Positions 8,046 through 12,848 of a stretch of DNA of 45,736 nucleotides are shown here, one piece after another. Numbering within the stretch: the stretch's first letter is position 1; each line of letters begins with the position of its first letter. This DNA comes from Methylomonas sp. (lineage in GTDB: Bacteria > Pseudomonadota > Gammaproteobacteria > Methylococcales > Methylomonadaceae), in the NCBI GenBank assembly GCA_026989395.1, contig JALSJK010000153.1:1-45736 (forward strand). Direction: 5' to 3'. The translations under genes and the position numbers were made by a program. A model generated the notes under the pieces. The model did not search any database, was not told the DNA's origin, and saw nothing but the letters and a program-made list of their open reading frames with translations.

Positions 8046-8342
8046 CTAATTCCATGAGCGGATGGCTTCATCCTGTCTGGTGGTTAGATATTTAAAATCC
8101 TGAGTGTCCAGAATTGAGACTCCTTGAGCTAGTTCCTGGGGCAATATACCTTTAGTTGTTAAGTCGTCTTTTAAGACGCACAAATTAATGTGGGTGAAGG
8201 TTTTTTTAATTACGGAATGATTTTTTAAGGTATCTCGTTTTGCTGCTAAAACAGCATTCTCAGCCAGTATTACAGTGTCGCCGGAAGTGGTTTTTTTCAA
8301 GGTATCAGAGTTTACGGGATATTGTTTAATGATATAAAGCAT
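8046..8342 (-). CDS. Orphan TusB/DsrH-like sulfur-relay protein
   Basis: This small protein (98 residues from the ATG at 8342; an in-frame ATG at 8354 is also possible) resembles TusB/DsrH. It begins MLYIIKQYP, like the usual MLHT..SP opening, and ends in the characteristic GV-x-I/L-x-D-x-x-x-F segment followed by a terminal tryptophan region (SILDTQDFKYLTTRQDEAIRSW). TusB is a subunit of the TusBCD complex, which relays persulfide sulfur for 2-thiouridine synthesis at the tRNA wobble position. No tusC, tusD or tusE is adjacent, so its partners must be elsewhere, or it has another role. It converges on trmL with only six bases between the stop codons. The similarity is modest but consistent over the whole length. 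Confidence 0.6.
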   Translation of the reverse strand: MLYIIKQYPVNSDTLKKTTSGDTVILAENAVLAAKRDTLKNHSVIKKTFTHINLCVLKDDLTTKGILPQELAQGVSILDTQDFKYLTTRQDEAIRSWN

Positions 8343-8686
8343 AAAGTTACTCAATTTAAAATTATTTTAATAAAGAAGATAAGCTAAGTTCTTTAACTAT
8401 CTAAACAATAAGGATAATACAAATAAAGTAAAAGGCAATGTTTTTTGCGTTATATTACTTTTCTAGCCTGATTGCATAAGGGTTTCATATATCTTATTAT
8501 TTTATAACAAGTATGGATGGTTGCTGCTTGGTGTCCAGTGGCTAGGAGGCTGTCGCTTATTTATGAGGTTCGTAGCGAGGAAAGCTGAGGAATTGAACGT
8601 ATTTTCAAGTGCATAGCCACCGCTACGCAATGAAAAAGATAGGAAGAAGGGCAGGCAAGTTGTTCAAGTTATTTCATGTGCGTTTT
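8343..8686. other. Non-coding region between tusB-like gene and gpsA, with repeat-like sequence
   Basis: About 340 bases without a credible gene. The first half is very AT-rich. The second half is less so and contains a compact structured stretch. GTGGCTA (8538-8544) and CGTAGCG (8571-8577) are each complementary to one half of the contiguous TAGCCACCGCTACG at 8614-8627. The last part (8657-8684) matches a sequence near the right end of the window and is listed as a repeat. The region could be a decayed mobile or repeat element, or a structured RNA. Confidence 0.45.
8657..8684 (+). repeat. Dispersed 28-base repeat, copy 1
   Basis: This stretch, containing AAGTTGTTCAAGTTATT and ATGTGCGTT, matches 45581-45608 at 26 of 28 positions in the same orientation. 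It ends two bases before the gpsA stop codon region (gpsA is on the minus strand). The left flank GCAGG is also shared, with a small length difference. Two copies 37 kb apart, both just beyond a gene end, suggest a short interspersed repeat family. Confidence 0.6.
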
Positions 8687-9691
8687 TTAGCTAAGTGTTT
8701 CAGCTTTTTGCTCGCGTAAGAGTAGGTTTTGTACGGCAATATTTGGTTCGAGGACATTGTAAAGCACATTGTAAACTTGTTCGACAATTGGCATTTCAAT
8801 AGCATGTTGTTTGGCGAGTCGATAAGTATTTTTTGCAGTTGCAATGCCTTCTATTTCTTGATCAATGTCTTTTTTAGCTGATTCCTGGGTTTGTCCCTGC
8901 CCGATGGCTAAGCCAAAACGGCGGTTGCGGGATTGATTGTCTGTGCAAGTAAGGATTAAGTCGCCAAGTCCCGCCAAGCCAACAAAAGACTCTGGTTTGC
9001 CGCCAAGTTTTTGTCCTAATCTTTGAATTTCAGTTAATCCACGGGTTATAAGTGCGGCGCGCGTATTTGCTCCAAAACCAAGTCCATCGGCAATCCCAGC
9101 GGCAATTGCCAGAACATTTTTAACGGCGCCACCAATTTGTACTCCAATTATGTCTGTGCTGGTATAAACCCTGAATCTTGGGTTGCGAAAAATTGCTGCA
9201 AGTTGTTCAGAAAAAACAGTATTGGTTGATGCAATGGTAACGGCAGTTGGCAGGTTAGCAGCAACTTCAGTCGCAAAGGTAGGTCCGGATAAAACGGCGC
9301 TAAGAATATTAGGATCAAGTGTGTTTGCAACTGTTTGGTGCAAGAGTTCACCGGAGTCATTGCTGAAACCTTTCGTTGCCCAGGCAATTTTGTGATTATT
9401 TTCCAGATAAGGGTTGATTTTGACAAGTGTTTCTTTAAAAGCGTGGCTTGGAATTGCGATGAGTAAAAGATCAGAAAATTTTACAATGCTCTCAATTTCA
9501 GAAGTAACCTCTAGCAAGTCAGGAAATGGGGCTTTTGGTAGGTACTGTTTGTTTAATCTGGATTTCTCTAAAGAATCGATGTGCTCAGGGTCATGACCCC
9601 AAAGCATAGTAGGATTGCCATTTCTGGCTGCCAGAACAGCTAAGGCAGTGCCCCAAGAGCCTGCTCCCAGGACTGCTAATTTGCTTTGCAT
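8687..9691 (-). CDS. gpsA: NAD(P)-dependent glycerol-3-phosphate dehydrogenase
   Basis: GpsA reduces dihydroxyacetone phosphate to sn-glycerol-3-phosphate, the backbone for phospholipid synthesis. The 334-residue protein has the N-terminal dinucleotide fold VLGAGSWGTA (Gly9, Gly11, Gly14). The catalytic-lysine region GGAVKNVLAIAAG and the substrate-site segment GFGANTRAALITRG follow. VGLAGLGDLILTC is also typical. It is the last gene of a minus-strand set running ArsR regulator, rhodanese, secB, gpsA; the enterobacterial order is yibN-grxC-secB-gpsA. A spacer of about 100 bases with two hairpins separates it from secB. Confidence 0.97.
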   Translation of the reverse strand: MQSKLAVLGAGSWGTALAVLAARNGNPTMLWGHDPEHIDSLEKSRLNKQYLPKAPFPDLLEVTSEIESIVKFSDLLLIAIPSHAFKETLVKINPYLENNHKIAWATKGFSNDSGELLHQTVANTLDPNILSAVLSGPTFATEVAANLPTAVTIASTNTVFSEQLAAIFRNPRFRVYTSTDIIGVQIGGAVKNVLAIAAGIADGLGFGANTRAALITRGLTEIQRLGQKLGGKPESFVGLAGLGDLILTCTDNQSRNRRFGLAIGQGQTQESAKKDIDQEIEGIATAKNTYRLAKQHAIEMPIVEQVYNVLYNVLEPNIAVQNLLLREQKAETLS

Positions 9692-9753: not shown

Positions 9754-9798
9754 GGCAACAAAGAAAATTGTTGCCGAATATGAGCAGCTTATTGCTCA
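9754..9798 (-). other. Two small hairpins between secB and gpsA
   Basis: Reading along the secB transcript, TGAGCA and TGCTCA (9798-9781) form a hairpin that includes the secB stop codon. GGCAAC and GTTGCC (9775-9754) form a second one. Neither is followed by a T-run, so they are more likely to affect mRNA processing or partial termination than to end transcription before gpsA. Confidence 0.4.
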
Positions 9799-10269
9799 GT
9801 TTACCGAATTTGAGCCGGGGGTTTGTTGTTGCGCTTGTTGCTGGTGCTGGGCATACAATGCATCAAAATTAACAGGTGCCAGCAATAATTGCGGGAAGCC
9901 GCCTTTGGCAACGAGGTCGGAAACTACTTCTCTTGCGTAAGGGAATAATATATTTGGGCAGAAACTTCCCAGCATTGGTCCCATTTCTTGCTCAGAAAAG
10001 CCATTGAGAGAAAAAATTCCGGCTTGGCAGGCTTCCACAAGGTATGCAGTATTATCCCCGGTTTTTACGGTAACAGTAACAGTTAATGTGACTTCATAAA
10101 GATTGTTATCTAAAGACTCAACATTGGTACCCAAGTTGAATTCCACGGCAGGTTCCCATTTTTCAGTAAAGATTTTTGGCGCTGCCGGGGTTTCAAATGA
10201 AATATCTTTGGTGTAAATTTTTTGGATTGAAAATTGTTTTTCTTCAGGAGTGTTGCTTTGTTCTGCCAT
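9796..10269 (-). CDS. secB: Protein-export chaperone SecB
   Basis: SecB is a cytoplasmic tetrameric chaperone that keeps preproteins unfolded and hands them to SecA. The 157-residue protein has the family segments FSIQKIYTKDISFE near the N-terminus, the beta-rich middle YEVTLTVTVTVK, and the conserved ILFPYAREVVSDLVAKGGFPQLLLAPVNFDALY segment (first residues ILFPYAREVV near residue 108). The tail is Gln-rich. It sits between the rhodanese gene and gpsA, the classical neighbourhood. The zinc-tailed SecA in the same window is its expected partner. Confidence 0.97.
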   Translation of the reverse strand: MAEQSNTPEEKQFSIQKIYTKDISFETPAAPKIFTEKWEPAVEFNLGTNVESLDNNLYEVTLTVTVTVKTGDNTAYLVEACQAGIFSLNGFSEQEMGPMLGSFCPNILFPYAREVVSDLVAKGGFPQLLLAPVNFDALYAQHQQQAQQQTPGSNSVN

Positions 10270-10301: not shown

Positions 10302-10730
10302 TTATTTTGACTTTGTAATAGGGTATTTGCTTTCTTCCCAGGCTTGCATTCCACCGATCATACTGGATACTTTATCAAAGCCTGCGGAAGTTAGTTTTTT
10401 GCAGGCAGTGGTGGAGCGGGTGCCAGTTTGGCATACGACTATAATGGGTTTATGTTTATACTTAGAGAGTTTTTCGATCTCTTTGTCAATATTGCTAAGT
10501 GGCTTATTGATAGCGCCTTCTATATGGCCTGTTTTAAATTCATTTGCCTCCCGTACGTCAATAATAACGGGGTCTTCATTGTTCATTTTAGCAACAACCA
10601 GTATCGGCGAAATCATCTCAAATTTTCTGAGTGCCGATTCAAATAGCTCCTGGAGAAGCAAAAAGGTAACCACCAACAGGGCGATAAACAGTAACCAATG
10701 ATTGGTTACAAATTCAATATAACGATCCAT
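10302..10730 (-). CDS. Membrane-anchored rhodanese-domain protein (YibN-like)
   Basis: This 142-residue protein has one N-terminal membrane helix (about residues 12-28) and a single rhodanese domain facing the cytoplasm. The predicted active-site cysteine is Cys100 in the loop CQTGTRS, a six-residue rhodanese loop preceded by IIVV. DVREANEF and GHIEGAIN are standard rhodanese motifs. Such domains carry a persulfide on the cysteine and transfer sulfur. It has the architecture of YibN, which accompanies secB-gpsA in enterobacteria, although grxC is missing here. The gene directly upstream encodes a probable persulfide-sensing regulator, so a sulfane-sulfur handling role is plausible. Confidence 0.88.
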   Translation of the reverse strand: MDRYIEFVTNHWLLFIALLVVTFLLLQELFESALRKFEMISPILVVAKMNNEDPVIIDVREANEFKTGHIEGAINKPLSNIDKEIEKLSKYKHKPIIVVCQTGTRSTTACKKLTSAGFDKVSSMIGGMQAWEESKYPITKSK

Positions 10731-10769
10731 ATAAATTAAGCAAATAAGAAAGAAAAATGATAAAAAAGG

Positions 10770-11084
10770 CTAGCAGTCTGTACAAAAAACTTCGCGCATC
10801 ATTTTAATGAGCTGCAGCATGCGATCATCGTCGATAAAATAAAAGACACGATTCGCATCTTTTTTATAGCCTAGAATGTCTTTTTCCCTCAAGATAGCCA
10901 AATGTTGTGAAATATTGCTTTGACTAGTGCCAACTTGCTCAACGATATCTTGGACACTAATTTTATTGCTTCCAAGAACACATAGAATCTTTAAGCGTAG
11001 AGGGTGCGACATGGCTTTTAAGCAGCGCGCAGCTCGTTTGATGTCAGCGTCATTATAATGTAAATGTTCGTCCTGTTTTTCCAT
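10770..11084 (-). CDS. ArsR-family regulator with YgaV/SqrR/BigR-type cysteine pair
   Basis: This 104-residue winged-helix repressor contains the ArsR core AMSHPLRLKILCVLGS and recognition helix SQSNISQHLAILRE. The metal-site motif of classical ArsR/SmtB (CxC in helix 3) is absent: the equivalent segment reads KISVQDI. Instead, Cys35 (in RLKILC) and Cys101 (in REVFC) lie 66 residues apart, the same spacing as Cys41/Cys107 of SqrR and Cys42/Cys108 of BigR, which form a polysulfide bridge on reaction with persulfides. E. coli YgaV, encoded next to the rhodanese YgaP, has the same pattern. Extra cysteines are Cys21 and Cys104. The rhodanese gene follows after 39 bases. The family call is firm; persulfide sensing is inferred from the cysteines and the neighbour. 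Confidence 0.85.
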   Translation of the reverse strand: MEKQDEHLHYNDADIKRAARCLKAMSHPLRLKILCVLGSNKISVQDIVEQVGTSQSNISQHLAILREKDILGYKKDANRVFYFIDDDRMLQLIKMMREVFCTDC

Positions 11085-11306
11085 TTTTTCAATTTTGTTA
11101 AAATGAATCAGTTTTGCGATAGTATGGATAGAAATTGGTTACTGAATTTAATGCGGAATAATCTCTCAAAATTCCCTTAAGAATATTTGAATGATATCTG
11201 TAGTATAATTGACTTAATTAAGAATAGTATGAAAATCTAATGAATGTAACAAAAAGATACTGCTATTTCAATTAAAATTTGAATTTGAATTTTGGAGACA
11301 AAAAAC

Positions 11307-12848
11307 ATGAAGGCTCGTCCAAAACCACTGGTTCTGTTAATTCTTGACGGCTTCGGTTACAGAAAAGAGACTAAATACAATGCGATTGCAGCGGCCCAAA
11401 CCCCATGTTGGGATCAATTGCAAAAAAGCTGGCCTCATACATTATTAAGCTGTTCTGGGCTGGATGTAGGATTGCCTGGTGGACAAATGGGTAATTCGGA
11501 AGTCGGACATACGCATATTGGCGTTGGTAGATTTGTACCTCAAGATTTAACGCGAGTGAATTTGGCAATTTCAGACGGTTCATTTTTTTCGAATCCCGCG
11601 TTATGTGGCGCTGTTGATAAAGCAATAAACAAAGGAAAAGCTTTACATATATTAGGTTTGTTATCTCCGGGAGGGGTGCACAGCCATATTGACCAAATCG
11701 AAGCTATGATCGATTTGGCTGCTAAAAGAGGATTAACTAAAATCTATTTACATGGTTTTTTGGATGGTCGAGATGTGCCGCCTAAAAGTGCTTCGGAATC
11801 TATTGAAAAGATGGAGAAAAAGTTTTCAGAGTTAGGATTTGGCCAGATAGCATCAATTATTGGCCGTTTTTATGCCATGGATAGAGATAAGCGTTGGGAG
11901 CGAGTCGAGCAAGCCTATAAATTAATCGTTGGAGGCGAGGCTCTTTATCAGGTTGAGTCTGCCTCGAAAGGATTGGAATTAGCGTATGAGCGTGGTGAAA
12001 CTGATGAGTTTGTTAGTGCAACGGCTGTTTTAAGTGATAATGAGCGGCCAATAAAGCTTGATCCTGAAGATTCAATTGTATTTATGAATTTTCGTGCTGA
12101 CCGGGCCAGAGAAATTTCGCAAGCTATAACCAATCCGGAGTTTTCTGGTTTTGAACGCAAATATCCGGTGCATTCTGGTGATTTTGTTACCTTAACCGAA
12201 TATCAGCAAGATTTTCCATATCCAGTAGCATTTCCACCGATGGAATTAAAAAATGGCTTGGGAGAGGTATTGTCAAATCACGGGTTGACGCAGTTAAGAT
12301 TATCGGAAACTGAAAAATACGCCCATGTTACTTTTTTTCTGAATGGCGGCATAGAGGAGCCTTTTTCAGGAGAAGAAAGAATACTAGTGCCCTCTCCAAA
12401 AGTGAAAACCTACGATATGCAGCCCGAAATGAGCGCCGCAGAGGTGACGGATCGTTTGGTAGAAGCAATTACTGGCGGGAAATACGATGTCATCATATGC
12501 AATTATGCTAATTGCGACATGGTAGGTCACACTGGGGTATGGGAAGCAGCCATTAAAGCTGTTGAGGCGGTTGATGCTTCGTTGCAGAGAGTTGTCGATG
12601 CGCTGGCGAGTGTTAATGGACAGATGTTGGTTACTGCAGATCATGGCAATATAGAGCAAATGGTCAATGAAGAAACTGGGCAGCCGTTAACTTCGCATAC
12701 AACAAACCCAGTGCCGTTGCTTTATTTTGGCAGCAAGATTGAGTTATCAGAGGGAGGGCGATTATCAGACATAGCGCCAACCATGCTGGATATTTTGGAC
12801 ATTGAGAAGCCAGAAGAAATGACTGGTCATTCTTTGTTAAAAAAATAA
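11307..12848 (+). CDS. gpmI: 2,3-bisphosphoglycerate-independent phosphoglycerate mutase
   Basis: GpmI interconverts 3- and 2-phosphoglycerate in glycolysis using two manganese ions and a phosphoserine intermediate. The 513-residue protein has [10 protein letters not shown] near the N-terminus, the catalytic-serine segment [46 protein letters not shown] and the metal-binding VTADHGN near the C-terminus. The start is the ATG at 11307, preceded by GGAG nine bases upstream. An upstream in-frame TTG overlaps that ribosome-binding site and is unlikely. It heads a probable operon with the EnvC-like gene and ctpA, a common gammaproteobacterial arrangement. Confidence 0.97.

Follow-up and report, generated by a model that had tools for sequence, protein, structure and literature searches.

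A cysteine-pair ArsR protein and a YibN-type rhodanese at the head of secB-gpsA: a candidate persulfide-responsive arrangement in Methylomonas and other Gammaproteobacteria

Most of what is known of persulfide sensors comes from the regulons of sulfur oxidation, biofilm formation and hemolysin. Their cysteine pair is numbered 41/107 in SqrR and 42/108 in BigR. In an ArsR network the known sensors of reactive sulfur species (RSS) with a Cys pair in α2 and α5 fall into one cluster and are co-localized with rhodaneses (PMC10509353). The targets of SqrR of Rhodobacter and of BigR of Xylella and Acinetobacter are sulfide-oxidation and biofilm genes (in part PMC10509353; PMC12423496), HlyU of Vibrio regulates a hemolysin gene (PMC10509353), and related ArsR proteins regulate sulfur oxidation in Hyphomicrobium (PMC12423496). 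In YgaV of E. coli the pair is C31/C98, 67 residues apart (PMC9774250). In the K-12 strain ygaV and ygaP lie side by side, which agrees with the YgaV–YgaP pairing named in a sequence-only reading of the DNA analyzed here, and yibN-grxC-secB-gpsA is found at another place. YibN co-purifies with SecYEG (PMC8082313), and another paper reports that it interacts with YidC and leaves the role of the rhodanese domain undetermined (PMC12282094).

The window, by which we mean the whole stretch of 45,736 nucleotides from a Methylomonas sp. contig (JALSJK010000153.1), contains the following features around the ArsR gene:

10770 to 11084, minus strand: ArsR-family regulator, 104 amino acids; codon of Cys35 at 10980-10982, codon of Cys101 at 10782-10784
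10302 to 10730, minus strand: membrane-anchored single-domain rhodanese, YibN ortholog, 142 amino acids; codon of C100 at 10431-10433, active-site loop CQTGTR
9796 to 10269, minus strand: secB, export chaperone, by profile matches
8687 to 9691, minus strand: gpsA, glycerol-3-phosphate dehydrogenase, by profile matches
11243 to 11271, minus strand: predicted sigma-70 promoter of the arsR operon, TTGAAA-17-TACATT with TG ahead of the -10
11085 to 11306, no strand: divergent arsR/gpmI intergenic region, without the M1 element (described below) and without ATTC-N8-GAAT
11307 to 12848, plus strand: gpmI, phosphoglycerate mutase, the divergent neighbor; ATG at 11307 is preferred over the listed TTG at 11292

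The open reading frames and the sequence bear out the order of regulator, rhodanese, secB and gpsA that had been read from this DNA; all four are on one strand, with gaps of 39 bp (arsR-rhodanese), 32 bp (rhodanese-secB) and 104 bp (secB-gpsA), and the divergent side carries gpmI, envC and ctp. The rhodanese was also correctly described as membrane-anchored, with Cys100, and directly downstream of the regulator, since its residues 12 to 30 form a hydrophobic segment (Kyte-Doolittle mean of 2.36 over 19 residues) and the loop cysteine is in place. As in the window, YgaV–YgaP combines an ArsR protein that has an α2/α5 Cys pair with a rhodanese, co-transcribed in E. coli (PMC9774250), but the rhodanese is a different one, the locus is different and no secB-gpsA adjoins it. 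A second E. coli K-12 region, with trmL, cysE-gpsA-secB-grxC-yibN and divergent gpmM-envC, equals the window neighborhood minus arsR; it differs in the presence of grxC and cysE and in the YibN loop, which reads DGSGMQ and has Asp in the Cys column.

The Pfam HTH_5 profile matches the window regulator (E of 3.5e-11) and, together with a winged-helix fold, places it in the ArsR/SmtB superfamily. In the AlphaFold2 model (mean pLDDT of 86.5), C35 lies within helix 2 (residues 28-37) and C101 just past helix 5 (residues 87-100). Foldseek matches the model to HlyU first and then to NolR, BigR, SqrR and YgaV, with metal sensors lower; by sequence, the nearest solved proteins are BigR, YgaV, HlyU and then SqrR. 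The cysteines of BigR and HlyU align with the window pair, SqrR shares the predicted fold and has a Cys pair likewise, and YgaV is 40% identical over 90 amino acids with both cysteines aligned, so that the likeness to YgaV seen in the sequence-only reading holds. HlyU differs in its target, a hemolysin gene (PMC10509353). The protein has cysteines at positions 21, 35, 101 and 104, and C35 and C101 are, as had been counted, exactly 66 residues apart. A metal-sensing ArsR protein can also be recognized by an α5 His/Asp site. Its other mark is an α3 CxC motif (PMC10509353). The window protein has ISVQDIV in place of the α3 CxC and no α5 His, and C21 and C104 are not conserved, which rules out a classical metal sensor and confirms the absence of a classical metal site. 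It is also ruled out as a member of the BigR equivalog NF040642, with a score of 69.3 bits (69 in round figures) against a cut-off of 155. In a tree built from 98 columns by a quick search, the orthologs split from the YgaV, BigR and HlyU-like rows with 96% SH-aLRT; the same tree resolves little beyond that split and places one very long row of uncertain kind (L142) inside the orthologs.

Both cysteines are kept in all 81 aligned sequences, the window included, where the count for Cys101 leans upward because the search was seeded with peptides that included KMMREVFC and CLKAMSHP. In the same alignment position 21 is Cys in 29 sequences and position 104 in 6, and the CxxC of C101/C104 is not conserved. 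In a larger set of 184 distinct ArsR sequences 183 have both cysteines, 173 of them with a spacing of 66. The pair is present in 166 of the 167 sequences with a rhodanese adjacent by the distance rule of our script and in all 17 others; these 17 include five more distant paralogs (L138-L142) and one sequence, L165, that is next to a rhodanese after all. The sole exception, L137/L191, belongs to a Methylococcales family. In 20 additional Methylococcales loci C35 is present in all and C101 in 16, the four losses being two substitutions in the L137/L191 family and two copies in which a stop or frameshift interrupts the gene ahead of Cys101. Loss of the cysteines in close homologs had been named beforehand as a refutation; it occurs for Cys101 in one Methylococcales clade with a decaying arsR, where 3 of 12 members lack this residue, against the near-universal pair in the large set. 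The losses are limited to decaying or broken Methylococcales copies, so the pair is constrained wherever the gene looks healthy. Signs of decay (lost Cys101, internal stop or frameshift) were seen in loci L191, L311, L319, L320, L322 and L323. With a spacing of about 66 residues between its α2 and α5 cysteines, the window protein matches the reactive-sulfur ArsR group (SSN cluster 4), and the structural model supports the view that it has the dithiol which defines this group, at the position predicted for it in the fold.

The alignment of the rhodanese with YibN of E. coli runs from end to end (32%, E of 1e-25), and that with YgaP covers the domain only (30% over 88 amino acids). It has an N-terminal transmembrane helix, judged by hydrophobicity only, and a single rhodanese domain, and it lies upstream of (grxC-)secB-gpsA with gpmI/gpmM divergent. 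The end-to-end alignment and the synteny with K-12 rule out a YgaP-type enzyme in favor of YibN, the type that had been expected from its company with secB and gpsA.

We searched an even draw of 370 Gammaproteobacteria genomes with an ArsR profile. At E≤1e-20 there are 200 matching genomes, 12 of them between 1e-20 and 1e-24, and a close ortholog (E≤1e-30) is found in 188. For 103 of the 188 we inspected the best copy; this sample combines the 30 top matches, 25 of the weaker ones and 48 genomes drawn from 48 families. A rhodanese is directly downstream in 92 of the 103, from 71 families, in line with the sulfurtransferase and rhodanese neighbors of SSN cluster 4. A survey of the recurrence of this gene order had been proposed with the sequence-only reading; the pairing of arsR with the rhodanese recurs so often that it is more than chance, it persists where gpmI no longer adjoins arsR, and the longer order arsR-rhodanese-secB-gpsA is kept widely. 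In 80 named loci the rhodanese is downstream in 79, and the stretch of the last one (L048) ends just after arsR. Over the best segment, these loci are 68-85% identical to the window in ArsR, about 30-57% in the rhodanese, 43-82% in SecB and 47-67% in GpsA; for so small a regulator, 68-85% suggests that its DNA target is conserved. The best copy has no adjoining rhodanese in 11 of the 103 genomes. Next downstream of a close ortholog in L182, L185 and L187 is an outer-membrane efflux gene in the place of the rhodanese, followed by an HlyD-type gene in L182 and L185; arsR is divergent from gpmI-envC in L182 and L187, with no such matches within the L185 stretch. In L193 and L198 (the genomes of L135 and L134, respectively) a ctp-type S41 protease gene is divergent to arsR. 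The ArsR profile has a match at E≤1e-25 in 93 of the 121 Methylococcales genomes and none in the other 28.

From the 170 non-matching genomes of the draw 60 were searched for SecB, with 50 matches (49 above the family cut-off), and in 45 ArsR-lacking loci, which represent 42 families, a YibN-like rhodanese is encoded on the same strand. The loop pattern C..[GS].[RQ], which was fitted after the data were seen, is found in 80 of 87 ArsR-linked loci (69 families, same draw) versus 9 of these 45; the stricter C..[GS].R gives 75/87 versus 6/45, and C100 itself 86/87 versus 35/45. When the named loci are added, 157 of 167 ArsR-linked loci have the loop and 165 have C100. Relatedness weakens this association. 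The SecB tree contains 4 supported independent pairs, and a SecB+GpsA tree of 74 loci contains 5 on well-supported branches (mean of 2.3 for and 0 against); with support disregarded, the best SecB+GpsA tree gives about 18 independent pairs (mean of 11.5 for and 1.1 against, median p of 0.006), and the catalytic Cys alone gives 4.4 for and 0 against (median p of 0.125). These pair tests exclude 18 ArsR-lacking Methylococcales loci, obtained by searching 20 of the 28 non-matching Methylococcales genomes (2 without SecB). The rhodanese loop is intact in all 18, so the enzyme does not need the regulator and the coupling between them is loose. A strict co-evolution of ArsR with rhodanese activity is weakened by these loci and by the small number of supported pairs. 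Read fairly, the sequences indicate that YibN has remained catalytic alongside ArsR and, within Methylococcales, also in its absence, and that it has drifted in many other ArsR-lacking lineages. Opposite to the general trend, L114, from a small genome of about 1.1 Mb, has ArsR and a Cys-less loop (ASTDSD). In L273 an arsR remnant with both protein ends kept and the middle gone lies beside a yibN-grxC-secB cluster.

The gene arrangement is real and widespread, and its regulator is most likely a repressor of the persulfide type that acts on the YibN operon. As a mechanism, we consider it probable that a dimeric ArsR repressor, released by persulfide or polysulfide through a Cys35–Cys101 bridge, controls arsR and the rhodanese with read-through into secB-gpsA; here we infer the ligand, the direction of control, the identity of the operator, the co-transcription to gpsA and the substrate of the rhodanese. 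In such a mechanism ArsR would repress its own operon as a dimer and work in the manner of SqrR, BigR, YgaV and HlyU. When persulfides or polysulfides rise, a polysulfide bridge would join Cys35 and Cys101 of one subunit, and the bridged protein would leave the operator and allow the expression of arsR and the membrane rhodanese. Transcription may read through into secB and gpsA, and the rhodanese may then move sulfane sulfur off at the inner membrane. Since a Cys-pair ArsR protein heads a rhodanese/secB/gpsA cluster that recurs widely, a sulfur signal may tune a core membrane operon. The sequence-only reading had arrived at a similar idea, which stands as regards the dithiol, the YibN type, the place at the head of secB-gpsA and the wide recurrence, and to which the Cys101 losses in the one decaying clade are a partial counter-example.

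How far such control extends is the point on which the strongest alternative turns. There is a considerable possibility that ArsR controls itself and perhaps the rhodanese, with secB and gpsA using promoters of their own and no sulfur control of export or lipids. YibN-like rhodaneses occur near secB without ArsR, both in E. coli and in the 45 loci described above, so the rhodanese-secB linkage is independent of ArsR; the secB-gpsA gap in the window is the longest of the three, and M1 is single-copy at arsR. Against this alternative, the two other gaps are short and free of internal predicted terminators in the window scan, and the four-gene order is widely kept. The same scan placed a promoter-like site at 10784-10757, overlapping the arsR-rhodanese gap, and three terminator-like sites inside the arsR and rhodanese genes, the numbers of sites being at chance level (6 promoter-like versus 9.7, and 3 terminator-like versus 3.3). 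Promoters or terminators that isolate the regulator had been named beforehand as another refutation, and the scan speaks neither for nor against them. The arsR-rhodanese gap is at least 100 bp in 32 of 79 named loci, which leaves room for a separate promoter. Ahead of arsR, 14 of 30 upstream regions from Methylococcales, the window's among them, contain the pattern TTGAA[ACT]-N17-[TC]ANATT, and 0 of 149 from other groups do; with 0.08 expected in shuffles, the site is more than chance.

Another question is where the repressor binds. A dyad search over 179 distinct arsR upstream regions found ATTAT-N3-ATAAT in 30 regions, where shuffles give 0.33, and TAGAC-N3-GTCTA in 14, where shuffles give 0. 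The first could be extended to a block of about 35 bp around TATTATTGTATAATGTT, here called M1, which is found in 97 of the 179 regions, all of them non-Methylococcales (97/149); the matrix was trained on the same regions and the shuffles ignore relatedness, so these counts describe rather than test. A rescan with a flat background gives 93/179, versus 1/179 on the opposite strand and 0/179 in coding sequence. M1 persists in 24 loci that have envC but no gpmI match beside arsR, which indicates that it goes with arsR. The 17-base core was counted, with up to two mismatches allowed, in 18 genomes that had mostly been picked because they contain M1. Of its 31 sites, 17 are at arsR and the 14 others, each with two mismatches, lie elsewhere; 16 sites have no more than one mismatch, and these are all at arsR, one in each of 16 genomes. 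One genome is without any M1 site. A reversed control pattern gives 7 sites in the same genomes, and so a few further M1 sites are possible. This distribution suggests that M1 may be the promoter/operator of the arsR operon, and with it autoregulation.

That M1 is a core promoter or the site of another regulator, with ArsR targets elsewhere, for example on the divergent gpmI-envC side, appears unlikely. TATAAT lies inside M1; upstream of yibN in two ArsR-lacking genomes of one genus stands TATTGTATAATG; some orthologs are divergent to ctp with no adjoining rhodanese found; and the two-mismatch sites outnumber those of the reversed control. A second palindrome, M2 (TTTAGAC-N3-GTCTAA), is also present in 38 of the 179 regions, for example in L107 and L108. 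Yet M1 stays where gpmI no longer matches, and upstream of yibN without arsR it is nearly absent (2/45, both in that one genus and sharing mainly the right half). In 32 of the 35 regions that have both, M2 sits 70-142 bp above M1. M1 was found in 0 of the 30 Methylococcales regions and is absent from the window (best score of 0.0 versus a threshold of 11.8). The SqrR-type ATTC-N8-GAAT, which is not a strict criterion of the family, is absent from both strands of 11085-11330. A TTATATTAATACACGTT block is found with up to 4 mismatches in 12 of the 30 Methylococcales regions versus 2 of 149 elsewhere; in the window it was not found with up to 6 mismatches. A MAFFT alignment of the Methylococcales upstream regions is very gappy.

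More doubtful still is the option that the same dithiol responds not to a persulfide but to heme, to a thiophilic metal or to disulfide stress from peroxide or oxygen: CuCl2 oxidizes YgaV, a disulfide forms in BigR, heme is bound by both SqrR and YgaV (PMC9774250) and the window protein has the extra Cys21 and Cys104, but the counts given above for these two positions mean that a metal site using them is not conserved, the published RSS sensors are clustered separately from the sensors of peroxide and metals (PMC10509353), and the usual neighbor of arsR is a rhodanese.

The persulfide-type repressor that we prefer would belong to a known class of sensor, and the pairing of such a sensor with a rhodanese is known too. 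What appears to be undescribed within the literature searched is the subfamily as such, together with the conserved element upstream of it and its position ahead of secB-gpsA: among the matches listed from the open literature, to which most subscription papers and bioRxiv preprints do not belong, no paper deals, by its title or abstract, with an ArsR protein at yibN-secB-gpsA, and among the listed papers with three of ArsR, rhodanese, secB and gpsA, none has ArsR. We tentatively suggest that about half of the sampled Gammaproteobacteria have persulfide sensors of an ancient, undescribed subfamily, which might tie reactive sulfur to YibN-SecB-GpsA and by this to membrane insertion and export and to phospholipid precursors; its long absence, as in E. 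coli, might have gone with the decay of YibN, once an active sulfurtransferase, into a membrane factor without catalytic activity. Should sulfane sulfur be what the subfamily senses, many sulfur-oxidizing and methane-oxidizing bacteria would have a core envelope operon under sulfur control, YibN would gain a plausible ancestral activity, and the purpose of its rhodanese domain would become a testable question.

Beyond gpsA the window contains a TusB/DsrH-like gene (8046-8354, minus strand) that scores 42.5 bits, below the TIGR03011 cut-off of 49.2 and above that of Pfam; none is shown among the 80 related loci. Other contigs of the same genome carry a second, stronger DsrH match and three DsrE matches.
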